Source: a virus
Direction: 5' to 3' (one strand)
DNA: 26,704 nt
IMG/VR virus record: IMGVR_UViG_3300001460_000100
Coordinates: 5,713-32,416 of that record
In this document: piece after piece, positions 839-20,300 of the stretch
How the letters are laid out: every line of letters begins with the position of its first letter
Position numbering within the stretch: position 1 is the stretch's first letter
Notes under the pieces: generated by a model
What the model saw: only the letters and a program-made list of their open reading frames with translations
What the model was told of the DNA's origin: nothing
Database searches by the model: none
Position numbers and translations under genes: made by a program

Positions 839-1366
839 ATGTCGAACGAACACAAAGAGAGAATCGAAAAAGCCATCGGTAACTTTTACCGGAAAAAACA
901 AAAGGATGCGGGGAGCTTTGATGAAGCGTGGAAAGGTGCAGGTCCGAAAAGGAAAAAGCGAGCAAAGCCCGAGGTGCCACTCGAACGAGACGAGCAAGTC
1001 CAACTGGCAAAATACCTCGACGGGCTCAAGCTCCTCTGGTGCCACGTCCCAAATGAAGGACACGGCGGTTACGGAAAGCGAGCCCAAATCAAAGGGGCAC
1101 GGTTGCGTGCCGAAGGGCTTAAGGCGGGGGTATGTGACGCATTGGTCTTCGATCACTGTACGCTCACGTCAGACGGGAAAACCACGCAATATAATGGTTG
1201 CGCGATTGAACTCAAACGACAAAAAGGCGGGCGAGTAAGCGACGCGCAAAAGTATTGGATAGAAGAATTAAATAATCGCGGCTGGTACGCTGCGGTTTGT
1301 AACGGGTTTTTAGAAGCCAAAGAGTTAATTGAAAGGTTGGGTTATGCAAAAAAGACCAGCGAATAA
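839..1366 (+). CDS. VRR-NUC domain nuclease
   Basis: This 175-aa protein matches the VRR-NUC family, PD-(D/E)XK-type nucleases found in phages and in FAN1/KIAA1018. Visible landmarks are E52/Q53-Q55 at the start of the domain, HVPNEG at 69-74, GLKAGVCDALVF at 93-104 with D100, the catalytic E124-L-K126 pair in CAIELKRQKGGR, and Q137 with the following hydrophobic helix and GWYAAVCNG. The first 45 residues are basic and lysine-rich and may bind DNA. Start 839 is preferred over 824 because CTGGAGG ends 5 bases before it. In phages such enzymes are thought to cut branched or flap DNA made during replication and recombination. The ribosome site lies inside a stem (776-833). The gene overlaps the following HTH gene by 23 bases, so they are translationally linked. 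Confidence 0.88.
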   Translation: MSNEHKERIEKAIGNFYRKKQKDAGSFDEAWKGAGPKRKKRAKPEVPLERDEQVQLAKYLDGLKLLWCHVPNEGHGGYGKRAQIKGARLRAEGLKAGVCDALVFDHCTLTSDGKTTQYNGCAIELKRQKGGRVSDAQKYWIEELNNRGWYAAVCNGFLEAKELIERLGYAKKTSE

Positions 1367-1559
1367 AGGGGTGAAGCGCTTGCGTCGGTGGATGCAGGAT
1401 AACGATAAGAGCCAGTACGACCTGAGCCTTATGCTCGACGTGTCACCCGAACACTTGTGCCGATTAATTGCAGGCCGGTTCAAACCGGGTTTAACGCTAG
1501 CTGTTAAGTTTGAAGAAGCCTGCAATATCCCTTGCCGCTCCTGGCTAGAACGGGTCTGA
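1344..1559 (+). CDS. Small HTH (Cro/CI-like) DNA-binding protein
   Basis: The 71-residue protein is almost entirely one helix-turn-helix domain: SQYDLSLMLDVSPEHLCRLIAGR at about 23-45 has the spacing of an XRE/Cro recognition unit, followed by helices reaching SWLERV. The N-terminus is basic (MQKRPANKGVKRLRRW). Start 1344 is chosen with GAAAGG 7 bases upstream; a TTG at 1329 is less likely. It begins inside the nuclease gene, and its last 15 bases overlap the end of the convergent helicase gene. It could be the repressor or Cro-like switch for the palindromic operators in the control regions, or a small host-like YdaS/Cro regulator. The domain is clear, the target is unknown. Confidence 0.8.
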   Translation: MQKRPANKGVKRLRRWMQDNDKSQYDLSLMLDVSPEHLCRLIAGRFKPGLTLAVKFEEACNIPCRSWLERV

Positions 1560-2939
1560 CGGGCAGTCGGTCCACTCGGCTCGCAACTTAGACTGTATGT
1601 TAAAGAACGTGCCGTTGGACCGGCGAACTCCCTTGTACCCCAAGAGCCTTAATCGCTTAGCCATTCCCCGCGCAGAGCCGTGTCGTCTTCCTGTCGCAGA
1701 ACAGAAATCTTTAAAGTCACTAAACAGATAAGAAAGTGCGCTCTCTCCTGTCGAGCAGCAGGCAAGCGTAAAGTCTTTTACCGGGTCACTGTCAGCGTGC
1801 CATTGTGCGATTGTCTCACGATGAGACGCAGGCAAAGTGAACGCACCGTGGCGAAGTAGTCTAACAGCCCCTTCGAGTGCCCAATGCACAATAGCCGCCT
1901 GCTCTTCTTTTAGTTCACTTAGAATCTCATCCTGACTTCTACGCTCTAGTGCATAATCGTTTGTGAAACTTCGGTTAAAGTCCATAATGAGAAAACGCCT
2001 AAAGAAGCCGTCAGAGTAATCTCCTGAGCCAATTGAGGGGAGAGCGTTAGCGCTAAAAATGTGACCAGCCCGAGGGATAAACGAGAACGGCGGCTGGTAA
2101 GGAAGACGACCCGAACATCTATCGCCTGCGATAACAGACTTAAACATATCGCTCGACTCAAGCGCGTTGTACTCGGGAAGCTCTGCACAGATGTTTAACC
2201 GGGAGTCCCGAAGAGATGCGAGAGTATAGTCGTGGTCCCACCTTTTGGGACTGGCGCTCGTCACCCGATTCTCCGGCCAGAGAGAGGACACTGCATCCAT
2301 TAACACAGACTTACCGTTGCCGCCCTTTCCGACAAGCAGTAAGCACCGACTGTATGCCGTGCTCTTACCCGTAAGGCAACACCCGAGCCACTCTTGAATA
2401 GCAGCTATCTTTGAATCTTTATCGTCGTCGTCACGCCAGAGCGAGCGCAAAAAGTTTAGCCAGTTAGTAGGCTCCGCTTTTGGCTCAATCTCAAAATCGT
2501 ACGCCCATGTGCAAAGATTATCCGGCGAGTGTTCGAGCATCTCTGTTCCAAACTCATCGATAACCCAAAACCCGTTTTTGTCCGCAATACCCGAGGGCAC
2601 TTTGTCAAAATACTTGTCGACCCGAATCTCATGTAAGAGCAGTGCAGTCTCTGCAACTGCCCTAGCCTTAGCCAAGCCTACCGTTAATCGTTTTGGCTTG
2701 TCTCCAGGCAACCAGAGCCCATCAAAGAGCAGTGCCATCGAGATTAGGTCGTTGTGCTCGACCCGGTTCCAGACAGCCCCGTCAAAAATGTACAGGCTCC
2801 CGTCGCTTGACACAGCGCGTCCTTCCGGTGAAGACGACACGAGTGCATCGAGCAGCATGGTTGCCAGCAAAGGGTCCGACCCGAACTCGGGCGTGTGGTG
2901 TTTTAGGTATTCCTCGACACAGGTGGTTAGCTCATTCAT
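1545..2939 (-). CDS. SF3 replicative helicase (D5/P4-type ATPase)
   Basis: A 464-aa superfamily 3 helicase of the kind fused to, or encoded beside, primpols in phages, plasmids and large DNA viruses. Residues about 20-180 form the D5_N-like region. The ATPase follows: Walker A GKGGNGKS (204-211), Walker B with the acidic pair in NICAELPE (249-256), motif C in HIFSANALPS (293-302) and a putative arginine finger in GFFRRFLIMDF (311-321). The C-terminal ~80 residues (with KRLRLLGYKGVRR) look like a winged-helix DNA-binding tail. It would unwind DNA as a hexamer at the origin or fork. The start ATG has only a weak upstream G-run about 11 bases away. It is the last gene of the leftward operon and converges on the HTH gene, overlapping it by 15 bases, whereas its presumed primase partner is on the plus strand. 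Three copies of the GACCCGAA motif lie in the gene. Confidence 0.92.
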   Translation of the reverse strand: MNELTTCVEEYLKHHTPEFGSDPLLATMLLDALVSSSPEGRAVSSDGSLYIFDGAVWNRVEHNDLISMALLFDGLWLPGDKPKRLTVGLAKARAVAETALLLHEIRVDKYFDKVPSGIADKNGFWVIDEFGTEMLEHSPDNLCTWAYDFEIEPKAEPTNWLNFLRSLWRDDDDKDSKIAAIQEWLGCCLTGKSTAYSRCLLLVGKGGNGKSVLMDAVSSLWPENRVTSASPKRWDHDYTLASLRDSRLNICAELPEYNALESSDMFKSVIAGDRCSGRLPYQPPFSFIPRAGHIFSANALPSIGSGDYSDGFFRRFLIMDFNRSFTNDYALERRSQDEILSELKEEQAAIVHWALEGAVRLLRHGAFTLPASHRETIAQWHADSDPVKDFTLACCSTGESALSYLFSDFKDFCSATGRRHGSARGMAKRLRLLGYKGVRRSNGTFFNIQSKLRAEWTDCPSDPF

Positions 2940-3055
2940 TTAAATTGTATCCCCAGGGCCGCGCAGCCCCCCATTGAAATTGAATTACGAAGCTACCCGA
3001 ATTTCGCCTTGCCGTAAATAATGCTTGGCGAGAATTTTAACCGGGCCTGATTTCG
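2940..3055 (-). promoter_or_regulatory. Leader of helicase gene with inverted repeat
   Basis: This 116-bp gap is the longest within the block of small leftward genes. It holds an imperfect inverted repeat at 3000-3036 (AATTTCGCC ... GGCGAGAATT, AT-rich centre) and a small GC hairpin at 2956-2969. The AT-rich centre reads CATTATTTA on the minus strand and could hold a -10 box, but I found no convincing -35. It may be an internal promoter or regulated leader giving the helicase its own control. Confidence 0.3.
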
Positions 3056-3382
3056 TTAGATATATTTTGATGACGCCAGTGCACCTATGAGCGCGTGTAC
3101 TGCGTCAGCACCCTCTAGCTCAATGTCCATCATCTCTAAAAAAACGACACCGGTTCCATCAAGTTCGAGGTAGGCGGGGATGTCAGCTTGAGATGCAACG
3201 GAATTGACCAGCGCAACGAGCGCCCAGAGCTGGTCGGTGCGCTGTTTCTCTAAAAGCTCGTCAAACTTTTCCTGGCGAATTTCGCGGAGTCTTTTTTCTT
3301 CTGCAATTTGCGCGTTAGTCTTTTTGCACGTTGCTTTGTTGTGGCCGTATAAACCACACCGGCTACATTTTCTTGGTTTCAT
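3056..3382 (-). CDS. CCHC zinc-knuckle microprotein, 108 aa
   Basis: The N-terminus carries C6-SR-C9-GLYG-H14-NKAT-C19, an exact C-X2-C-X4-H-X4-C zinc knuckle of the type in retroviral nucleocapsid and cellular nucleic-acid-binding proteins. It is followed by a charged helix or coiled coil (about 24-50, AEEKRLREIRQEKFDELLEK) and a hydrophobic, acidic C-terminal domain (about 55-108). A single-stranded DNA or RNA binding role is the natural inference. The function is not known to me and the C-terminal half resembles nothing I recognise. The ribosome site lies in the AAAGAGAGCTAA that also encodes the end of the upstream gene; the start follows that stop by three bases. Its position directly before the helicase fits a role in replication. 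Confidence 0.8.
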   Translation of the reverse strand: MKPRKCSRCGLYGHNKATCKKTNAQIAEEKRLREIRQEKFDELLEKQRTDQLWALVALVNSVASQADIPAYLELDGTGVVFLEMMDIELEGADAVHALIGALASSKYI

Positions 3383-3385
3383 TGG

Positions 3386-3559
3386 TTAGCTCTCTTTCTT
3401 TAATTGGTTACACGCACCCAGCATGGATGCGGCTAGGTTCATTGCATCGCGCAGGTTTGCGTCGAGCATGTGGTGTTTATTCTCATTAACGAATCGCTCG
3501 ATATTCAAAATGACATCGGTTAACCCGCTCATCATTGCGTCAAGCTCATGCTCTTCCAT
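3386..3559 (-). CDS. Small hypothetical protein, 57 aa, -KES end
   Basis: I do not recognise this protein. It starts MEEHELDAMMSGLTD, is predicted all-helical and amphipathic, and ends QLKKES. The start is set at 3559, two bases after the stop of the upstream gene and behind the purine-rich AGAAAGAGAG; a longer version from 3592 would run through the upstream gene end and is less likely. It is tightly coupled on both sides (2 and 3 bases) to genes with the same junction sequence. Confidence 0.7.
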   Translation of the reverse strand: MEEHELDAMMSGLTDVILNIERFVNENKHHMLDANLRDAMNLAASMLGACNQLKKES

Positions 3560-3561
3560 GG

Positions 3562-4131
3562 TTAGCTCTCTTTCTCTGTTGGGTCCAAGCACAGTTCATT
3601 CTCCAGTTCCCGAACTCTTGCATACAGTGCTTTGTTTTCGTGAATAAGTTTTGACTTCTTTGCCAACGCTTCCGGTGACAACTTAAGTTTTTCCTGAAGC
3701 GTCTTTTGCCCTTTCTCAAGCTCCGCATTCTTTTTACTTAATATAGAAGCCTTGCACTCGGCTTCTGTTAGATGAATAGTGAGAAGGTCGCACTGTTTCA
3801 CCCAGTCTGTATTTTTCAGCTTTTTGTTTTCAGCTTTAATTGCTCTGCAGGCTTCTTGAACTTTTAAGCTTTCTTTTTGCAGATAAAGCCCATACTCCTT
3901 TGCTGATTCCCCCTCTTCAATGTCAGATTTCCAGGCATCTTTAAGCTTTTTTATGTACTTTTCGTGCTCATCCTGTAGCTGTTCGATGCGCTCATCATAA
4001 TCCAAGCAGGTGAGCCTTAAGTCCTCAAGCCGCACTGCTTCCATTATCTTATAGCACTCGTGGTGGAGGTCGCTGGCAAGCCTTAGTAAGTCGTCCCGGT
4101 CGAACTGAATTGTCTTTGCTTCCTTGCCCAT
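3562..4131 (-). CDS. Coiled-coil hypothetical protein, 189 aa, -KES end
   Basis: The protein is rich in Lys, Glu and Leu. From about residue 35 to 185 it reads as long amphipathic helices (YDERIEQLQDEHEKYIKKLK, then SKKNAELEKGQKTLQEKLK and ENKALYARVRELENELC), so it is most likely an elongated coiled-coil dimer. Four cysteines are scattered and do not form a motif. The start at 4131 (MGKEAKTIQFDRDD) is taken because it follows the upstream stop by two bases behind AGAAAGAGAG; a start at 4170 would lie inside the upstream gene. Coiled-coil proteins in phage early regions can be scaffolds for replication proteins or anti-host factors, but no function can be assigned. It ends DPTEKES, the recurring operon junction. 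Confidence 0.75.
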   Translation of the reverse strand: MGKEAKTIQFDRDDLLRLASDLHHECYKIMEAVRLEDLRLTCLDYDERIEQLQDEHEKYIKKLKDAWKSDIEEGESAKEYGLYLQKESLKVQEACRAIKAENKKLKNTDWVKQCDLLTIHLTEAECKASILSKKNAELEKGQKTLQEKLKLSPEALAKKSKLIHENKALYARVRELENELCLDPTEKES

Positions 4132-4133
4132 AA

Positions 4134-4310
4134 TTAGCTCTCTTTCTTTGGTAGGGTCCAGTCGACCCATTGAGTTACGAACCCGCCATCGGACGGGCTC
4201 CAGTACCTGATTTGAATCCGAGTACCCGAATCGTTGGTGTCAATCCACTCGACGTGACCGTACTCGGGGTGCGTTATTGTTGTTGTCCCGTGTCGTTTTC
4301 TGCCTTTCAT
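4134..4310 (-). CDS. Small hypothetical protein, 58 aa, -KES end
   Basis: This gene was found by translating the minus strand across the gap. It runs from an ATG that overlaps the stop of the upstream gene as ATGA (4307-4310), with GGGGAGAGAG in front as ribosome site, to a TAA two bases before the next start. The product begins MKGRKRHGTTTITHPEYG, has an HVEWID motif and an aromatic C-terminal half (RYWSPSDGG, WVDWTLPKKES), which suggests a small beta fold. The HP-x-HVEW[I/F]D pattern recurs in the protein at 5600-5797, so the two may share a fold. An alternative frame at 4240-4470 gives only a basic, low-complexity peptide and lacks these couplings. Confidence 0.72.
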   Translation of the reverse strand: MKGRKRHGTTTITHPEYGHVEWIDTNDSGTRIQIRYWSPSDGGFVTQWVDWTLPKKES

Positions 4311-4474
4311 CTCTCTCTCCCCTCGTCCCGGTAGCGGGATAAGTCCTCGTCCTCGAAGCAGTCATGACCCTTTTCGCCGCCCTCTTCCTCGTCTTTTTCT
4401 TGGGCGATGTATTTCTTATAGGTCGCTGGGTAACAATGCCTGCAGTCGTAGGCACCACATAGACACTCACGCAT
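4307..4474 (-). CDS. Cys-rich putative zinc-binding microprotein, 55 aa
   Basis: Found by hand translation. The ATG lies 8 bases inside the end of the preceding gene (ATGCGTGA) and its TGA overlaps the next ATG, giving perfect tiling of the operon. The N-terminus MRECLCGAYDCRHCYP has C4-X-C6-X4-C11-X2-C14, a spacing able to bind one zinc, with H13 and C39 as further candidate ligands. The remainder is highly acidic (QEKDEEEGGEKG, FEDEDLSRYRDEG). It is the second small cysteine-motif protein in this operon after the zinc knuckle at 3056-3382. I do not recognise a family. Confidence 0.7.
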   Translation of the reverse strand: MRECLCGAYDCRHCYPATYKKYIAQEKDEEEGGEKGHDCFEDEDLSRYRDEGRER

Positions 4475-4793
4475 TTTCTAGCTCCACCTTCATAATCGAC
4501 CCGAACTTGTCCCGCTCGCGTCCGTTGAAATAAAACAGTGCTCCAGGTCCATTACCGGCGGCGTCGCAACTTAGGACAACGTGCGACCCGTCATCGAACT
4601 CCAGCACCAGGGCGCGGCAGGTCCAGTTGAATGTGAGCAATTCCTCGTCAGTCTGATACCTGACCCGAACAATAGTCCGACCCTCTAGCACCTCGCGAGC
4701 TGGCGGGTTTTTGGTGATGTTCTCAATGTGGCTTAACATGGCGTCCTTTTTTGCGACCCGCTCAAACGAGTGCAGCTCTATTTTCTTTGTCAT
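4467..4793 (-). CDS. Hypothetical protein, 108 aa
   Basis: I do not recognise it. The N-terminal 40 residues are helical and charged (MTKKIELHSFERVAKKDAM). The second half alternates short beta-like strands and glycines (FDDGSHVVLSCDAAGNGPG, then ALFYFNGRERDKFGS). There is no membrane segment or signal peptide. The ATG overlaps the stop of the upstream gene as ATGA, with GAGAGG as ribosome site, and its own end overlaps the next gene by eight bases. Two copies of the GACCCGAAC motif lie in it, in two different frames. Confidence 0.75.
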   Translation of the reverse strand: MTKKIELHSFERVAKKDAMLSHIENITKNPPAREVLEGRTIVRVRYQTDEELLTFNWTCRALVLEFDDGSHVVLSCDAAGNGPGALFYFNGRERDKFGSIMKVELENA

Positions 4794-4972
4794 TGACCCG
4801 AACCTCTCATCTGCTCAATAACCCGCCCAATCATTTCAGCTTGGCGCATTGTGTTGAGTCCAGGGTGGGCGGCTTCCACCGCATCCCTAATCTTTTGCCA
4901 GCGGGCCAGACCCGAACCGAGGTCAGGGCTTTTTAAGATAGGATTTACATCTAAAATTTCTTGGGGTGTCAT
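4790..4972 (-). CDS. Small hypothetical protein, 60 aa
   Basis: It begins MTPQEILDVNPILKSPDLG and is mostly helical with a conserved-looking GLARWQKIRDAVEAAHPG segment (about 21-38). Its ATG overlaps the stop of the gene at 4969-5364 (ATGA) with AAAGAAAGAAACAGG upstream, and its TGA overlaps the ATG of the gene at 4467-4793. The neat four-base overlaps at both ends are the main evidence that it is real. Two GACCCGAAC motifs fall in it, one of them spanning its last codons. Function unknown. Confidence 0.7.
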   Translation of the reverse strand: MTPQEILDVNPILKSPDLGSGLARWQKIRDAVEAAHPGLNTMRQAEMIGRVIEQMRGSGQ

Positions 4973-5364
4973 GACCTGTTTCTTTCTTTAATTTCAACCT
5001 CTAAGGCTTGCACTGTATCTCCCAGCTCACCGTCAATCGTTTCCCAGAGGGCTTTAGCGTGAAGGATTTTGGCTGTGGTAATCGCGTGCTCTTCATCCTC
5101 GAAGAAGTCGCCGTGACCAAAAGTATCCAGAATAGTTTTACCGTCAATTTTCACGCGGTATTCAGTCCAGCCGTGGTGACCCGAACAATCGTTCCAGCTT
5201 GGTGGAACTTCCCTTGTTTCGACCCGAACACCTGACAAGCCGTAACGCCAATCGTCGGACAGGTCCAGGTGATTTACAATCCAGTGATAACAGTCCTCAG
5301 AGGACCCGAACGAGCGCCGGTATTCCCGCCCTGTTTTTGTGCTGCGAATTAAATAAGTTTCCAT
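4969..5364 (-). CDS. Hypothetical protein, 131 aa
   Basis: I do not recognise it. It starts METYLIRSTKTGREYRRSFG and is followed by a mixed alpha/beta region with aromatic and His residues (NDCSGHHGWTEYRVKIDGK, FGHGDFFEDEEH). The last 40 residues are a charged helix ending KERNRS. The ribosome site is AAGGA in the leader AACAAGGACAACACCA, nearly identical to that of the gene at 5799-6044. A GC-rich hairpin (5399-5432) separates it from the upstream gene, so this is a new translational unit within the operon. Three copies of GACCCGAAC lie in it, one in each reading frame. Confidence 0.78.
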   Translation of the reverse strand: METYLIRSTKTGREYRRSFGSSEDCYHWIVNHLDLSDDWRYGLSGVRVETREVPPSWNDCSGHHGWTEYRVKIDGKTILDTFGHGDFFEDEEHAITTAKILHAKALWETIDGELGDTVQALEVEIKERNRS

Positions 5365-5398
5365 TGGTGTTGTCCTTGTTTGAGTTAACCCGATAATG

Positions 5399-5432
5399 GT
5401 CCGGCCCGGGCGAGCTACTACCCGAGCCGGAC
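5399..5432 (-). terminator. Intercistronic GC-rich hairpin (attenuator or processing site)
   Basis: On the minus strand GTCCGGCTCGGG pairs with CCCGGGCCGGAC across a 10-base loop, with one G-U pair; on the plus strand that pair becomes a C-A mismatch, so the structure favours leftward RNA. No T-run follows (CATTATCGG), so it is not a standard terminator. It sits between a stop and a leader of the type AACAAGGACAA, the same arrangement as at 6084-6113. Confidence 0.5.
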
Positions 5433-5441
5433 TTTATGGGG

Positions 5442-5603
5442 TCAACCCTCTTGAGCGTCTAAGGCATTGTGAACCGCAAGGACACGGTACAACTCCTCTA
5501 GGCGCTTCAATGAGTATGAATCGGGCTGACCCTCGCCAGCAAATTCGGCGACAAGTGATTGGAGGCGGGAGTGGATAAAGCTAATCAAGGTGCTGCGTGT
5601 CAT
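5442..5603 (-). CDS. Small hypothetical protein, 53 aa
   Basis: The start at 5603 (MTRSTLISFIHSRLQSLVAE) is chosen because its ATG overlaps the upstream stop as ATGA and GAGG lies 8 bases before it; a 64-codon version from 5636 would overlap the upstream gene by 37 bases. The peptide is predicted as two amphipathic helices separated by GEGQPDSYS. It has no recognisable motif. The hairpin at 5399-5432 follows its stop. Confidence 0.68.
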   Translation of the reverse strand: MTRSTLISFIHSRLQSLVAEFAGEGQPDSYSLKRLEELYRVLAVHNALDAQEG

Positions 5604-5797
5604 GATTTTACCTCGCTTTCGTACCCGTCGAACCATTCGACGTGCTCGGTTGTTGACCCGTCAGGGTGTACTTTGGTTACAGCTTGCCGCGTGTCCGGTC
5701 GCTGGCAATGGGCTTGGGCTTCCTCAAGTGTCAACCCGCGCTTTATGACGCGGTTCATACCCTTAAACTTGAACCGGATAATTTTGTAAGTTTCCAT
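5600..5797 (-). CDS. Small phage protein with GLTLEEAQAHC motif, 65 aa
   Basis: It begins METYKIIRFKFKGMNRVIKR and continues GLTLEEAQAHCQRPDT. From memory, similar strings (a short basic strand region, then TLEEAQxHC and a D/E-T turn) occur in many small phage proteins of unknown role. The C-terminal half has HPDGSTTEHVEWFDGYE, echoing the HVEWID of the 58-aa protein at 4134-4310. The ribosome site GAGGAGG is very strong and is built from the last codons (KRRK) of the upstream gene, whose stop is one base before this ATG. The fold is probably small alpha/beta. Function unknown. Confidence 0.78.
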   Translation of the reverse strand: METYKIIRFKFKGMNRVIKRGLTLEEAQAHCQRPDTRQAVTKVHPDGSTTEHVEWFDGYESEVKS

Positions 5798-5798
5798 G

Positions 5799-6044
5799 CT
5801 ATTTCCTCCTCTTAGGCATTGCTCTAAACATCATTTCTGAACTAGTCGCACGCCGCGAAAACATCGCACGCATTCGAATTTGGTGGCTGTATTCCGCATC
5901 CATTCGGTGCTGAATTTTCGCGGGGTCGAATAGTAGCTCCAGCAAAAGTTGATTTTTTGCGTCGTCTGGGGTCACTCGCCACAATTGGCGAAACATAACG
6001 CACCAGGCCCTCCATTTTTGAATAAACATTCTCGTTCTGTTCAT
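5799..6044 (-). CDS. Basic, Met/Arg-rich hypothetical protein, 81 aa
   Basis: Start 6044 (MNRTRMFIQKWRAWCVMFR) is supported by AAGGA seven bases upstream in AACAAGGACAAACCA; the open frame extends to 6122 but those codons cover a hairpin and lack a ribosome site. The protein is rich in Arg, Met, Phe and Trp, is predicted helical, and ends in the very basic RAMPKRRK. It may bind nucleic acid or be a small membrane-active helix (residues about 7-22 are amphipathic). No family is recognised. Its last codons form the ribosome site of the next gene. Confidence 0.7.
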   Translation of the reverse strand: MNRTRMFIQKWRAWCVMFRQLWRVTPDDAKNQLLLELLFDPAKIQHRMDAEYSHQIRMRAMFSRRATSSEMMFRAMPKRRK

Positions 6045-6083
6045 TGGTTTGTCCTTGTTAATGGGAGTGTTATAGGCTCCATT

Positions 6084-6113
6084 GGCTACCCTGGGCACGA
6101 CTCCAAGGTAGCC
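6084..6113 (-). terminator. Intercistronic hairpin (attenuator or processing site)
   Basis: GGCTACC at 6084-6090 pairs with GGTAGCC at 6107-6113, with three further inner pairs (TGG/CCA) past a single mismatch. No T-run follows on the leftward strand. It lies in the 93-bp gap between the 230-aa gene and the next, before an AACAAGGACAA leader, as the hairpin at 5399-5432 does. It probably adjusts the amounts of the downstream mRNA. Confidence 0.45.
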
Positions 6114-6137
6114 TAGCAACACACAACACAGGAAAAC

Positions 6138-6830
6138 TTAGTAAGGTAGGTTGGAGTAAGGATACAGCTTAACCAGCCCACCGCACTTAAGCACACCCAC
6201 AAAACATTGGAGCTTAGGTGAATATTCCGGAGAATCCTTCAAGAGGTCGTCAACAATACCGGCGGGATAGTGGGTATACCCGGGCGAAGCTTGCTCGTTT
6301 ATTTCCTCGACTGAATCCAGAGACGACTCAAAAAACAGCTCGAATTTAATGTTAACCCGGGTCGAGTTCCATTCGGTAAAGCTTCGCAAGGGCTCACAGT
6401 GCCAGCCCACCACTTGGTCATAGAAACCAGACTCGCCTAGGTTATCAACCTTATAGAGTCGCCAAGCCCCATAGTTGCCCCGAGGGTCGCCACCTAAGTG
6501 GGGCTCGACTGCCACGTAGATATCATCCGCCCAAGTATAATCCGCGCAATCGTATGGTGCGAAAACTTGCCACGCAAAACCGTCACTCAATTGCTGCTCG
6601 TGGTTGTACGTGTTCCCCAGTTGCCCTTGCGCTTGGTAGGGTTGACCCTCTAGACACCCGATAAGCTTGGCAAGCCCGTCCTCGCAATTAGAAAGCCAGT
6701 CGCCTGGTTCTAGTTCAAAGGTTTCCATAAGGGGCGAGTCCAGCTCGATAGGGTCGCCTAGTGTCGCCTCTAAGAATTTCTCAGTGTCCAGAGAGGTGCA
6801 ATCAAAGTAGTTCAAATCAACGTTAATCAT
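6138..6830 (-). CDS. Acidic Trp/Tyr-rich hypothetical protein, 230 aa
   Basis: This is the first and largest of the orphan genes in the leftward operon. It is acidic and very rich in Trp, Tyr, Gly and Asp, with a central block (LSDGFAWQVFAPYDCADYT, then WADDIYVAVEPHLGGDPRGN) that looks like a compact beta-rich domain; YNHEQQLSDGFAW is the most motif-like part. There is no signal peptide or membrane segment. The ribosome site AAGGAA lies in ACAAGGAACCTTCCCT before the ATG. I have an impression that similar proteins occur in other phages but can name no family. As the promoter-proximal gene it is probably made early and in quantity, so a host-takeover role is a reasonable guess only. Confidence 0.8.
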   Translation of the reverse strand: MINVDLNYFDCTSLDTEKFLEATLGDPIELDSPLMETFELEPGDWLSNCEDGLAKLIGCLEGQPYQAQGQLGNTYNHEQQLSDGFAWQVFAPYDCADYTWADDIYVAVEPHLGGDPRGNYGAWRLYKVDNLGESGFYDQVVGWHCEPLRSFTEWNSTRVNIKFELFFESSLDSVEEINEQASPGYTHYPAGIVDDLLKDSPEYSPKLQCFVGVLKCGGLVKLYPYSNLPY

Positions 6831-6881
6831 AGGGAAGGTTCCTTGTGTGAAAATTAGCTCTAGACCGTTGGTATCAATATC

Positions 6882-6897
6882 TTGACGCCAGGGTCAA
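6882..6897. promoter_or_regulatory. Operator-like palindrome TTGAC-N6-GTCAA (left copy)
   Basis: TTGAC GCCAGG GTCAA is a 16-bp inverted repeat directly next to the minus-strand -10 candidate TATAAT (6902 down to 6897), so a bound protein would cover the probable start of the leftward transcript for 6830. The same architecture occurs at 8415-8430. The HTH protein at 1344-1559 is one candidate binder. Confidence 0.5.
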
Positions 6898-6925
6898 TTA
6901 TATAATGAAGATAGGTGTAGATAAT
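6897..6925 (-). promoter_or_regulatory. Candidate leftward promoter with perfect -10
   Basis: On the minus strand TATAAT is found at 6902-6897 within the palindrome ATTATATAAT. The -35 is poor (ATTATC at 17-bp spacing, TTATCT at 16), so an activator would be needed. TGAAGATA repeats at 6906, 6947 and 6966 are placed where one could bind. The leader to the ATG at 6830 would be about 60 bases. Confidence 0.4.
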
Positions 6926-6973
6926 ATTCCCGAAAAAATGAACTAGTGAAGATAATGACTTGAGGTGAAGATA
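6906..6973. repeat. TGAAGATA repeats (three direct, one inverted further away)
   Basis: TGAAGATA occurs at 6906-6913, 6947-6954 and 6966-6973 in one orientation, with GG following in the first and third. An inverted copy (TATCTTCA) lies at 7146-7153. The spacings are 41 and 19 bases. They look like sites for an activator or an origin-binding protein. Confidence 0.45.
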
Positions 6974-6980
6974 GGTTTTA

Positions 6981-7080
6981 AGGCACTTTTTAAACGATAT
7001 CAGGCACTTATGAGTATGGGTGTTCTATATTCTTACTCTAAACGTTTGAAATTCTTATAGGACACAATATCAGGCACTTA
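6981..7080. repeat. AGGCACTT repeats, two as a longer 14-bp copy
   Basis: AGGCACTT lies at 6981-6988, 7002-7009 and 7072-7079. The last two belong to an identical 14-mer ATATCAGGCACTTA (6997-7010 and 7067-7080). The first two are 21 bp apart, two helical turns, as for sites bound on one DNA face. Confidence 0.45.
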
Positions 7081-7203
7081 GAGCGCTAGCGCGTATACGT
7101 AAAAGATAGTTTGGCGAGGTGGATCATTAGGTTCATAGGTTCATTTATCTTCATTCGCTTGACGAATGGTGTCTTATGGGGTGAAAGTGGGGTAACGTTA
7201 TCG

Positions 7204-7255
7204 GGTCACTTGGGAGTATACATATAAAACGAGTGACCGTTTATGCTCTCAAGTG
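7204..7255 (-). promoter_or_regulatory. Candidate leftward promoter inside nested inverted repeats
   Basis: On the minus strand TTGAGA (7252-7247) and TTTTAT (7229-7224) are separated by exactly 17 bases. The promoter is embedded in two inverted repeats: GGTCACT (7204-7210) with AGTGACC (7232-7238), perfect, and CACTTGGGAG (7207-7216) with CTCTCAAGTG (7246-7255), nine of ten. This is what a repressed promoter with overlapping operators would look like. It would serve the operon beginning at 6830 with a leader of nearly 400 bases. Confidence 0.45.
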
Positions 7256-7273
7256 GCCTTTATCGACCTGACC

Positions 7274-7293
7274 TGACCCTATTTGACCCTATT
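7274..7293. repeat. Tandem TGACCCTATT pair
   Basis: Two perfect 10-bp copies are joined head to tail, preceded by the related GACCTGACC. Together with the CCGAA units to the right they make a 60-bp stretch of GACC/CCGAA-type repeats. Confidence 0.5.
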
Positions 7294-7383
7294 AGGTCCC
7301 GAATACCCGAAAACGCGAACCCGAATAGAGCAGGCCGGTGGGATATGTCCTGAATGAATCGCTGAAACTGTGGATTTTTAGGC

Positions 7384-7411
7384 AAAAAAAGCCCCGGACA
7401 TTGCCGGGGCT
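7384..7411 (-). terminator. Intrinsic terminator of the 7433-8339 leftward unit
   Basis: On the minus strand AGCCCCGG, a 6-base loop and CCGGGGCT form a perfect 8-bp GC-rich stem followed by a run of T residues (plus-strand A-run 7384-7390). It lies about 20 bases after the stop of the gene at 7433. It insulates this unit from the control region and the second leftward operon. Confidence 0.9.
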
Positions 7412-7432
7412 CGATAGGGTGGGTGGGTTAGA

Positions 7433-7666
7433 CTATTTCAGCTTGCCGTATCCCGGCGTTCCCTCTCGTGAAGATATGTCTCCTCTAATTATTTGCAGGC
7501 GAGTCATAACGCTTCGCACGTAGTCGTGAGGGAAGACCTCGCTAAAATGGTGCGCGGCGCGGTCGTTTGACAGGTCTTGGATTAATTCGGTTAACTGCTT
7601 GTCGGCAAACTTGCACGCGTTCTTGTGAATTTCTGCTTCTGTCGGTCGTTTTACTGTCTTTGTCAT
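7433..7666 (-). CDS. Small hypothetical protein, 77 aa
   Basis: Begins MTKTVKRPTEAEIHKNACKF and is predicted helical for most of its length, with a His-rich central part (AAHHFSEVFPHDYVR) and a Gly-rich end (REGTPGYGKLK). The ATG overlaps the stop of the upstream gene (ATGA), with GGAG about 7 bases upstream. Last gene of a three-gene leftward unit; the terminator follows. Family and function are unknown to me. Confidence 0.75.
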   Translation of the reverse strand: MTKTVKRPTEAEIHKNACKFADKQLTELIQDLSNDRAAHHFSEVFPHDYVRSVMTRLQIIRGDISSREGTPGYGKLK

Positions 7667-8058
7667 TTCATAACTCCATTGGTTGTTTCTACAATTGCGT
7701 ACAGGGCTCCGTCAGAATCGGCGGTCGCCCAAGCTTTTGAAAGGTGGTCTACAATGATTTTTTCGCCATTGCGGATTACGTGAAAGTGCGTATCGCCCTT
7801 GGTGGGGTCAAACTGGATACGCTCCGCACTGGCTGGGATTGCTGTCATGGTTTCAGGTTGAACGGTAGCAGCTTTGAACCACGCAAACACCTTGCGGCTG
7901 CCGGTACCAGCATTGCACTTTGCAAAGTGCTTGTTGGTGAATGACGGGTGACGAACCACGACGTCAATAAGTACAGCTTGCGAGCAGTGCAGGGTCTTAC
8001 TTGGAACGTAGGACCAACAACCTTTGTTTAAGTTGCGGTGAAATTGTATGCGTTTCAT
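7663..8058 (-). CDS. Hypothetical protein, 131 aa
   Basis: Starts MKRIQFHRNLNKGCWSYVPS; GAGGG lies 8 bases before the ATG. The first half is basic with scattered Cys and His (C14, C25, C48) and the second half looks beta-rich (AERIQFDPTKGDTHFHVIRN, then GEKIIVDHLSKAW). The N-terminal KxIQFHRNLNKG pattern gives the impression of a small conserved phage family, but I cannot name it. Its start and stop each overlap the neighbouring gene by four bases, so the three genes of this unit are translationally coupled. Confidence 0.75.
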   Translation of the reverse strand: MKRIQFHRNLNKGCWSYVPSKTLHCSQAVLIDVVVRHPSFTNKHFAKCNAGTGSRKVFAWFKAATVQPETMTAIPASAERIQFDPTKGDTHFHVIRNGEKIIVDHLSKAWATADSDGALYAIVETTNGVMK

Positions 8059-8339
8059 GCGTAAACCCTCACAACGCTTCCGGATACATAGGGGCTTCCG
8101 TTCATGTCCATACCATGCATTGGGCGGTCACTTGTGGGGCACGCCTTGTAGATGCATACAAGACCGATATCGAGCAAAGTAAACGTTCGGTGGTAGATGT
8201 AGCCAGACAAATTCATATGCCACTGGCGGAGAACCTTCAAAAACATAACGGCGTATGTCCTGCCGTTTGCGGACCAAAATAAACAACTCACAGTAGCTCC
8301 AATGAGTAGGGGTTGAATTAGTATTGATGCAAGCGTCAT
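8055..8339 (-). CDS. Small hypothetical protein with N-terminal membrane segment, 94 aa
   Basis: The frame ends TGA overlapping the ATG of the next gene (ATGA), which is the main support. From the ATG at 8339 the product starts MTLASILIQPLLIGATVSCL, a convincing hydrophobic segment (about 3-23), followed by a basic region and a second moderately hydrophobic stretch (RTFTLLDIGLVCIYKAC, about 52-68). There is no good ribosome site before 8339; a TTG at 8399 would extend it by 20 residues, also without one. If real it would be a small membrane protein made early, perhaps affecting the host envelope. An opposing plus-strand frame at 8001-8282 is judged spurious. Confidence 0.5.
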   Translation of the reverse strand: MTLASILIQPLLIGATVSCLFWSANGRTYAVMFLKVLRQWHMNLSGYIYHRTFTLLDIGLVCIYKACPTSDRPMHGMDMNGSPYVSGSVVRVYA

Positions 8340-8414: not shown

Positions 8415-8442
8415 TTGACACACCCGTCAATTGCCCTATGTT
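8415..8442 (+). promoter_or_regulatory. Rightward promoter candidate overlapped by operator palindrome
   Basis: TTGACA (8415-8420, consensus -35) and TATGTT (8437-8442) are 16 bases apart. The -35 lies in two overlapping palindromes: GTCAATATTGAC (8408-8419) and TTGAC-ACACCC-GTCAA (8415-8430), the latter with the same arms and spacing as the site at 6882-6897. A protein bound there would block RNA polymerase. The leader to the first gene would be about 350 bases. Confidence 0.55.
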
Positions 8443-15684: not shown

Positions 15685-16080
15685 ATGGCGAGTAGAGATT
15701 TTAAAAATGTTCAATCGTCCGAGCGAGCGGTGAAAATCGTTTACGGTCGTGCGACAATTGGCGGATCAGGGGCACCGACCCTTGACGCCAGCTCTAGCAT
15801 CGGGGTGAGAAGTATTACCCGAACCGCTGCCGGAGATTACACCATTGTACTGGGGTCATCGACTCCAGCGGCTACAGACAAGTACAGCAAACTCCTTTGG
15901 GGTGATGCGACTATTGTTGAGGCTGACGATACAGACTTACATTCTTATTTGGCGGCGGATACAGTTTCAACGGACGGTACTTTTAAGATTATTTGTACCG
16001 CTGGGGCAACAGCTACTGACCCGCCAGAAAACGCGGTTCTTTTGTTCAAAGCAGAGCTAAAGAATACCAGCGTTAAGTAA
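15685..16080 (+). CDS. Putative capsid decoration or stabilisation protein
   Basis: 131 residues, beta-rich, Gly/Ala/Thr-rich, no Cys except one near the end. The pattern GRATIGGSGAPTLD, then GVRSITRTAAGDYTIVL and a C-terminal NAVLLFKAELKN resembles small beta-sandwich proteins that sit on capsid surfaces or fibre tips. The position directly after the coat gene fits a decoration protein (head stabiliser). GGGAG precedes the ATG. Identification is by place and composition only; a minor structural protein of another type remains possible. Confidence 0.5.
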   Translation: MASRDFKNVQSSERAVKIVYGRATIGGSGAPTLDASSSIGVRSITRTAAGDYTIVLGSSTPAATDKYSKLLWGDATIVEADDTDLHSYLAADTVSTDGTFKIICTAGATATDPPENAVLLFKAELKNTSVK

Positions 16081-17352: not shown

Positions 17353-20300
17353 TGGCGCTAGAAAAGAAAACGCTTTCATTTGCGATGCTTAAAGGCATTG
17401 ATGAGAAGTCGTCAGATTCTACACGGGCACCTGACGGCTTAACGTCTTTAAGAAACATGGACTTTGGAAAAAAGGGCCAGCTAGTCAAGCGGGGCGGTTT
17501 TGTGCATGACACCAATGCCACCATTACAAAGTTTGGCGGGGGTGATATTTCTTCAGGCGTAGCCATCTCTCAATACGGCGACGAGACGTTAATTTTAGAT
17601 GGTAAGAATCTATACTCTTGGATCAAAGAAGGTGACAACGGGCAAGGCTTGCTCAATCGTGGCACTTACGTCCCTTGCACGGTTAAAAACGAATTTAAAA
17701 ATGTCCAAACAGATAAGCGTCAAAGCAATTGTCAGATTGCTGAAAAAAACGGCGTCCGTGTTTATGTTTGGGAAGAGTACGAGTTTCAGGGAAGCGACTA
17801 CAAGACGTTTGTAGACGTTGAGCACATTGCCAGCGGTGCTCGCCTTATCGAGACAACTGAAATAAGCAGCACTGCGATTGTTATTGACGGGCCAGGTGGG
17901 GGCGGAACCGCTGCCGATACAACTACGCTTTACAAGCAAGCCCAGCCGCAATGTGCTGTTATCGGAAACTATGTTTTTATTGTTTACCAGGAACGCGATG
18001 GTTCAGCAAACCACTTAAGATATCGTTCGGTAAACTGCACAAGCATTACGACCGCCGCCGCTGTTTCTTCAGAAGCCAATTTATACAAAACGGGAACAAC
18101 TGTACAAATTGAAATCGGGACAAGTTACCCTGTTTTTCAAATAGACAAATTTCTAGGCGTAACGCATTCAGATGCTATTGTTATTGCTCACACAACACCT
18201 GGAGCTAACTCAATAACAGTGGCGTACTTGACAGCAAGCGGGGCCACGCTTTCCCGGCCAGCAACTACTTTAGTAACAACGACAAACGTTTATTTTGCGC
18301 CATTCAACAAGGTTACAACCGGTGTGCCTAACGGCATAATTTTAAAATGCTTAAACGACGTAAACGCTGCATCAGAATACTCGATTGTGTTGGGGTACAC
18401 TGCCGACACTGGCGGGACATACAAAGTCGTTTTAGTTCAAATAAAAGACGACTTAAGCGCTAAGATAGACCACGCCAGTCAAAACGTATTGGCTGATGGA
18501 AGCAGTACAGGAGCATTGCATCTCTTAAGAGGGACTGCTGGCTCTGTTACCGATGAGGGCGCAATAGGCGTTTTTGTAGAAGTATATTCGCCTGCCACTG
18601 ACGTAGGTGTTCAGGGCAAGATTGTGCCGGAGCATTTTGTGCGGCTTTACTTGTTAGCACGGGGCGCGTCCACGATTGCAACTGAGTCAAACGTTGTAGC
18701 ATTTAACACTTCTGTTACTTCTGATTTTTTTAGATACAACGGGAATATTTACTGCGTACTGTCTCAAGTAAACGACAACGCGCTGCACATTGATTTTGAC
18801 GCCATTGAGCCTTCTGGAAACAGCCGGGGGCTTAACAATAACTCCGCTTTAGTAAATTTGCAGGGCGAGATAATTGGGGCGCTAAAGACAGGCAGCGCTC
18901 CGCTGTGTCTTACGTCTGACTACATAACAAACAACCCTGCTGACTTTGATGGGGGTCGAGAAAACCGGCGGTTACTTTACGGCGTGCAGCGCGTTACTTC
19001 TCGCGACAGTGCAACCGAGTTTGTGTTTGGTGCCTCTCGTCACTACGCTTACGCCTTTCACGACCCAGGGGCTTACGGCCCCGGTGATTACCCAGACAAC
19101 ATTTTTGGTGTAAGCCTGTTTGAGATTGATTTTGACCCTGCTCGAAAACTAGCCTCAGTAGACATTGAGAACGTTTGGCTAGGCAGCGGCGGGTTTATCC
19201 ATAGTTACGATGGCAACTCGGTGGTTGAAAACAACTTTCTAAACTACCCGGCAATCAAAAAGATTGAGGAAAGCTTTAACAGCGCTACGGCTACCGGCGG
19301 GTTTAGTGACAGTAAAGTTATAAAATACTGCTGCATTTATTCGTGGACAGATGCCAAGGGGAACCTTCACCAGTCAACGCCTTCTGAAATGGTTGAGCAG
19401 ACGATTACGCCCGGTAAAGCCTCAGGGGTTAGATCTATTACAGCTCCGGGCACTGGTTATGCAACAGTTATAGGTTTAGACACTACCGGGGGGTCAGGAA
19501 CCGGGTGCAAGGTAAACGTAACCGCGAACGGCGCTGGTCAGATTACGGCCGTGTCGATAGCCGGTGTGACTTTTACAGGTTCGGGGTACACTGATAACGA
19601 TGAATTAACGGTTGTTTACCCTGACGGCCCAGGCTCAGGTGGCACGTTCAGGATATCTTGCTCGGGTAAATCCGTTATTCAGGTTTCAGCTTACGTTCCA
19701 AGCCTTACAAGAAAAAAAGATGTAACCCTCAAGCTTTATCGTACTGACCATGCAGGGGCCACGTTTTACTTTGTTGCTGATATACCGATTCCAGAAAGAA
19801 CTGCGCTAACGTCTTCAATTGTCACGTATGTTGATTTACCTATAGACGAGACAGCAATTACTTCAAGGCAGATTCTTTATACAACCGACTTACCTGCTAC
19901 GGGTTTTGCGGGGTGCAGTACCGATTTAGTACGACATCAAAACAAGCTTATTTCTGCGGGAACAGATGACTCTGCGTATGCGTCAAGCGTTATTAGGGAA
20001 GGCGTGGCTCCAGGGTTTCCTCTTTTTAATCACTCTATTAATTTAACGGGTGACCCTGGAAAAATTACCGCTATTGAAAGTAACTTGGATACGCTGCTCC
20101 TTTTTACAAATAACGACGGTTATTACGTGGCAGGTTCCGGTCCTGACGTTTTAGGCCAGGGTCGGTATGGTGAGCCTCGATTATTTGCGCGAGGCCATGG
20201 AGCGTTAGAGGGTGCAGCCCACACGGATACGCCTCTCGGTGTTTTTTACCAGACTCCTCAAGGCATTCACGTAATTGGCAGGGATTTATCAATTGCCTAT

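Follow-up and report, generated by a model that had tools for sequence, protein, structure and literature searches.

The DNA analysed here, the window, is a 26,704-nt stretch of a viral contig of 32,416 bases, of which it forms positions 5713-32416. A near-identical record with different ends (L006, also G005; 30,410 bases), when combined with this contig, points to a genome of some 36 kb, and the part missing from the contig, judging from open reading frames, probably encodes tail-fibre-like and small lysis-type proteins. The left of the window is occupied by a leftward operon, closed by a helicase gene and preceded by a control region, with the gene for a small helix-turn-helix (HTH) protein lying convergently at its end. 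Within this operon recurs a 9-mer, GACCCGAAC on the plus strand, which reads GTTCGGGTC in the sense of the operon. Relatives were retrieved from IMG/VR by helicase and terminase searches; the helicases of the closest are 99% (L001), 91% (L002 and L003) and 77% (L004) identical to that of the window, and a wider group was also recovered; these are marine phages. No close phage was found in an annotated phage collection, nor any relative in bacterial genome contigs searched with the terminase. The features of the locus are as follows, with positions such as +54 counted along the gene.

1344-1559, plus strand: gene for a 71-amino-acid HTH_3 protein, the contig's only HTH_3 match and the best candidate binder
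1444-1452, minus strand: variant GTTCGGGTG, inside the HTH gene; kept in L001-L003
1545-2939, minus strand: gene for a D5/SF3-type helicase (DNA primase families in PHROGs), the operon's last gene; alternative candidate binder
2108-2116, minus strand: exact GTTCGGGTC, helicase gene, frame 1; kept in L001-L003, GCGCGGGTC in L004
2619-2627, minus strand: one-base variant ATTCGGGTC; L002 and L003 have other amino acids and no motif
2878-2886, minus strand: exact GTTCGGGTC, helicase gene at +54, frame 2; kept in L002, L003 and L004
4223-4231, minus strand: variant ATTCGGGTA, gene 4134-4310; kept in four of four group A relatives
4498-4506, minus strand: exact GTTCGGGTC, gene 4467-4793 at +288, frame 2; near the gene end
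4662-4670, minus strand: exact GTTCGGGTC, gene 4467-4793 at +124, frame 0
4795-4803, minus strand: exact GTTCGGGTC, end of gene 4790-4972, frame 1; one base changed in L002 and L003
4909-4917, minus strand: exact GTTCGGGTC, gene 4790-4972 at +56, frame 1
5178-5186, minus strand: exact GTTCGGGTC, gene 4969-5364 at +179, frame 1
5221-5229, minus strand: exact GTTCGGGTC, gene 4969-5364 at +136, frame 0
5303-5311, minus strand: exact GTTCGGGTC, gene 4969-5364 at +54, frame 2
6866-6897, minus strand: tentative candidate promoter of the leftward operon, with a TTGAC(C/G)-CGTCAA inverted repeat
7296-7355, minus strand: control-region direct-repeat array (ATTCAGGAC, ATTCGGGTT, TTTCGGGTA, ATTCGGGAC), oriented as the dispersed copies
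7383-7412, minus strand: intrinsic terminator serving the leftward genes upstream; immediately precedes the array

The exact 9-mer is present nine times on the plus strand of the window and never on the minus strand, and extending the count to the whole contig leaves it at nine forward and none reverse. All copies are coding and lie in the leftward operon, seven of the nine within 4498-5311, and they are read in codon frame 0 (4662, 5221), frame 1 (2108, 4795, 4909, 5178) and frame 2 (2878, 4498, 5303). This recount agrees with an earlier note, which had described nine one-way copies in all three frames of this operon alone, seven of them clustered, and a tenth with one change at 2619; further single-mismatch variants on the plus strand lie beyond the stretch it considered, at 1444 in the HTH gene and at 15816 in the late operon, and the minus strand has only one, at 20134. 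The core ACCCGAA is similarly biased, its counts being 14:0 over the leftward region (1545-8060) and 1:0 over the rightward genes. When synonymous codons were shuffled among the leftward genes, GACCCGAAC arose with a mean of 0.22 and a maximum of three copies in 5000 trials, against nine real copies, and in 1000 of these shuffles no 9-mer of whatever kind exceeded four copies; codon choice and protein sequence therefore fail to explain the repeat, and together with the use of three frames this rules out codon usage and protein conservation as its cause, as the note had argued for the latter.

The close relatives likewise carry GTTCGGGTC one-way, and the other relatives almost lack it. An over-representation scan of the distant relatives G015, G027 and G010 recovered ATTCAGGA/ATTCAGGAC, again one-way and in the same operon, and the versions of the motif in distant relatives, ATTCAGGAC/ATTCAGGTC, are one-way in the leftward operon. 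The form common to the groups is RTTCRGGWC, its information limited to about nine positions, of which GTTCGGGTC is the version of the window group and ATTCAGGWC that of G015, G027, L073 and L075; two related phage groups carry related but different motifs. The window contig has 12 operon-sense sites, which are confined to the leftward operon with its control region, against one in the opposite sense; the corresponding sense:antisense counts are 11:0 in L001, 9:0 in L002, 10:0 in L003, 9:2 in G015, 7:1 in G027, 5:0 in G010 and 5:0 in G019. L004 is a poorer fit, at 3:0, and has in addition five one-way copies of GCGGGTC. When the pattern was applied unchanged to two contigs fetched after it had been defined, it was found 7:1 in L075 (expected 0.48) and 3:1 in L073 (expected 0.30). 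Codon-preserving shuffles indicated enrichment of the coding copies at P 0.002 or better in nine of 11 contigs, and more weakly in G010 (P 0.02) and L075 (P 0.09, not significant alone); summed over the 11 contigs, some of which are related and hence not independent, coding copies number 53 sense and one antisense. Group D has no leftward operon and no enrichment of the motif, three contigs of this group or related to it having 0-1 matches, and an apparent group D motif, GACGACGAC, proved to be a run of GAC codons. The literature searched contained no description of RTTCRGGWC.

Relatives with genes of about 90% similarity retain most copies. Retention exceeds that of the remaining 9-mers from these genes: six of the eight window copies are kept whole in L002, versus 35% of other 9-mers (P 0.026), six of eight in L003, versus 33% (P 0.017, not independent of L002), and two of four in L004, versus 8% (P 0.035). 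Copies also turn over: the site at 2619 encodes Arg-Val as ATTCGGGTC in the window and in L001, but Lys-Lys as ATTAAGAA in L002 and L003, hence the presence or absence of a copy can go together with a change of amino acids. The note had named a two-way distribution, or loss from close relatives, as grounds for doubting the motif; the contig has no reverse copy, the late operon no exact one, and most copies are kept in the relatives. The repeat is a real, conserved, one-way element, probably regulatory.

The copy at 4795 lies 1 nt ahead of the point where gene 4467-4793 starts. Such a place immediately 5' of a start codon is not typical, most copies being inside genes. When one site per gene family was counted and gene starts were taken as the longest-ATG ones, there were 31 independent coding sites. 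Six of them begin 51-56 nt after the start codon; the six genes are unrelated, and the frames differ. Simulation gave a scan-corrected P of 0.0025 for six sites in any 6-nt window, and this clustering is a lead only, noticed post hoc and dependent on the longest-ATG starts. It would suit an mRNA element through which an RNA-binding protein controls the translation or stability of the operon's transcript, as would the one-way orientation with transcription and the presence within the operon of a possible binder, a 108-amino-acid protein (3056-3382) with a CCHC zinc-knuckle pattern near its N-terminus and relatives in several groups. That protein's Pfam match is below threshold (E 0.075), however, and it is also encoded in group D, which has no motif; moreover, the motif is no more unpaired in predicted RNA than other sites are (0.28 vs 0.36), and an array of helical period, described below, probably lies upstream of the promoter. 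An mRNA element is rather unlikely. A Shine-Dalgarno-like role was rejected, for some ATTCAGGAG copies overlap ribosome-binding sites in G015 and G027 but TTCGGGTC does not resemble one, and tRNA T-loop mimicry was dismissed on inspection, as the conserved A has no counterpart in the motif and the motif's flanks do not pair.

Two other repeats are linked to gene starts. GGTTAGCTC is found on the plus strand at 3384-3392 and 3560-3568, and GAGCTAAC(C) occurs in G015, G027, G010, L073 and L075, one-way and 1-31 nt before ATG codons, in up to 11 copies, often within the KES-stop end of the preceding gene; GAGCTAAC looks like a start-associated sequence. A second start-linked repeat, ACAAGGAC, is found at 5365-5389 and 6045-6060 in the window, and in L001-L003 and G019, in up to six copies that mostly lie 6-8 nt before start codons; it replaces GAGCTAAC in G019.

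In most relatives a direct-repeat array of the motif lies between a terminator and the AT-rich region that precedes the operon. That of the window has four units at 7296-7355, between the terminator at 7383-7412 and the AT-rich stretch; the CCGAA units that the earlier note had seen at 7297-7325 are real, and extend further than it described. Eight units are present in G010, seven in L002 and L003, five in L035 and four in L075, and the eight of L008 are spaced by 12, 11, 11, 11, 11, 11 and 11 bp. A period of 11 bp is about one turn of DNA, which suggests proteins bound side by side on one face. The similar period of the alphaproteobacterial LexA box, GTTC-N7-GTTC, was considered for L008 and rejected, since the spacer belongs to the conserved core and the single copies that lie dispersed lack a partner. 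Hundreds of bases separate the array from the candidate promoter downstream of it, and the array is therefore probably outside the operon RNA. Array units (ATTCRGGAC) differ in sequence from the dispersed window copies (GTTCGGGTC). The control region of G027 has no array despite the dispersed copies of that contig, so the two uses of the motif are separable. The control region of the window also contains the repeats TGAAGATA and ATATCAGGCACTTA (6902-7155).

Replication-origin iterons are likewise short direct repeats beside an AT-rich region, and this arrangement is seen in the window, L001-L003, G010, L008, L035 and L075, but not in G027. The motif might then be an iteron bound by the SF3 helicase, whose gene closes the same operon, or by another initiator, with the dispersed copies as auxiliary sites. 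Unlike iterons, the motif has many extra copies dispersed through the genes of a single operon, every one in the same orientation; these track the leftward operon and the direction of transcription, are nearly absent from the late region, and in G027 occur without an array. Such a role is unlikely, if worth retaining as a rival. The strand-specific replication signal and the mRNA element put forward by the earlier note thus both survive as alternatives and fit less well than an operator or roadblock, and its further suggestion of a packaging signal found no support.

Inverted repeats of the form TTGACG-N4-CGTCA are found at likely promoters of both operons (6882-6897, 8415-8430 and 8633 in the window; 4289 and 2820 in L011; about 635 in L008), and these may possibly constitute another operator. 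In G010, G015 and G027 a copy of the motif directly precedes a TTGACG hexamer, which, with the one-way orientation, would be expected if each copy were part of a promoter for a host or phage sigma factor. As no second box was found at a fixed spacing from the 15 window copies and 38 copies in relatives, promoter-type elements appear very improbable.

The likeliest binder is the HTH_3 protein. Eight of nine records have one HTH_3 match each, the ninth, G005, being without that stretch of sequence; the protein has about 71 amino acids, and its gene, convergent with the operon, is flanked by a VRR-NUC gene and the end of the helicase gene. Contigs with GTTCGGGTC encode a protein 99% identical to that of the window, those with ATTCAGGWC one of 52-56% identity, and group D one of only 22-26%. 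This covariation is compatible with the HTH protein as binder, rather than proof of it, and does not single it out because the helicase shows a parallel divergence. The usual targets of small HTH_3 proteins are palindromes, to which they bind as dimers, and the TTGACG-N4-CGTCA palindrome near the likely promoters could be the HTH site instead. Given that the phage binder is a candidate only, a host regulator might occupy the sites; the motif changes between related phages along with the phage proteins, which makes this improbable.

We tentatively favour RTTCRGGWC as an asymmetric DNA operator of the leftward operon with dispersed intragenic roadblocks, which would resemble the stoperators of mycobacteriophages in action, and place the probability of this at about 0.42. 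One phage regulator of the operon, most likely the convergently encoded 71-amino-acid HTH_3 protein, would bind the asymmetric sites: those of the array before the operon would work as operators, and those inside genes as roadblocks that slow or stop RNA polymerase, such that shutdown of the operon could also take effect behind polymerases already under way. In its favour are the enrichment beyond codon constraint, the one-way orientation, the retention of copies above that of other 9-mers, the shift of the motif between groups alongside the HTH protein, the lack of enrichment in group D with its strongly diverged HTH protein, the ordinary accessibility of the motif in predicted RNA, and the helical-period array of L008, which follows a terminator and precedes an AT-rich region. 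Against it are the preference of small HTH_3 proteins for palindromes, the parallel divergence of the helicase, the array-less control region of G027 and the non-significant coding copies of L075. If correct, elongation control by dispersed one-way sites would not be restricted to actinobacterial temperate phages and could act from inside genes via a single small protein. The phages would then offer a small testable system for the stopping of RNA polymerase in one direction by DNA-bound proteins, with the related but different motifs of the two groups as material for specificity tests.

Several known systems share part of this arrangement. A precedent for a roadblock within a gene is C.Kpn2I, a small controller protein with a site in its own coding sequence from which it blocks elongation (PMC6237814); the regulator proposed here from sequence would similarly be a small DNA-binding protein acting at coding DNA, but at many asymmetric sites in a phage operon rather than at one site in a restriction-modification system. 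The lytic T1-like phages Stevie and TLS have asymmetric repeats of unknown role that also run in one direction with transcription, but these are 22 bp long and predominantly intergenic (PMC4319613, PMC11447400). The stoperators of cluster A mycobacteriophages such as L5 and Bxb1, with which the earlier note had drawn a comparison, are asymmetric sites in many copies and one orientation to transcription, comprising operators and dispersed sites whose motif varies between related phages, and reversing a stoperator abolishes its effect (PMC6550527, PMC9283540). The likeness in asymmetry, orientation, multiplicity and variation among relatives is upheld. It does not extend to the 13-14 bp length of those sites, their genome-wide number of 20-30, their position between genes or at gene ends, or the two-domain, monomeric repressor of 183 amino acids (PMC6550527, PMC9283540), as opposed to the sites of about 9 bp here, the 12 in one operon and its control region, mostly intragenic save for those at 4795 (a junction) and 4498 (near a gene end), and the candidate single-domain HTH protein of 71 amino acids. 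The cluster A phages are, furthermore, temperate, and a Phage_integrase search, which covers that family of tyrosine integrases, found no match in nine records here, though these phages may have other modes of lysogeny. The system is not an L5-type stoperator system; it is conceivable, if doubtful, that it represents a stoperator-like arrangement independent of that of the mycobacteriophages, in which a phage with no integrase detected would control one operon through a single small HTH protein and one-way intragenic roadblocks 51-56 nt past gene starts, with site and protein changing together.
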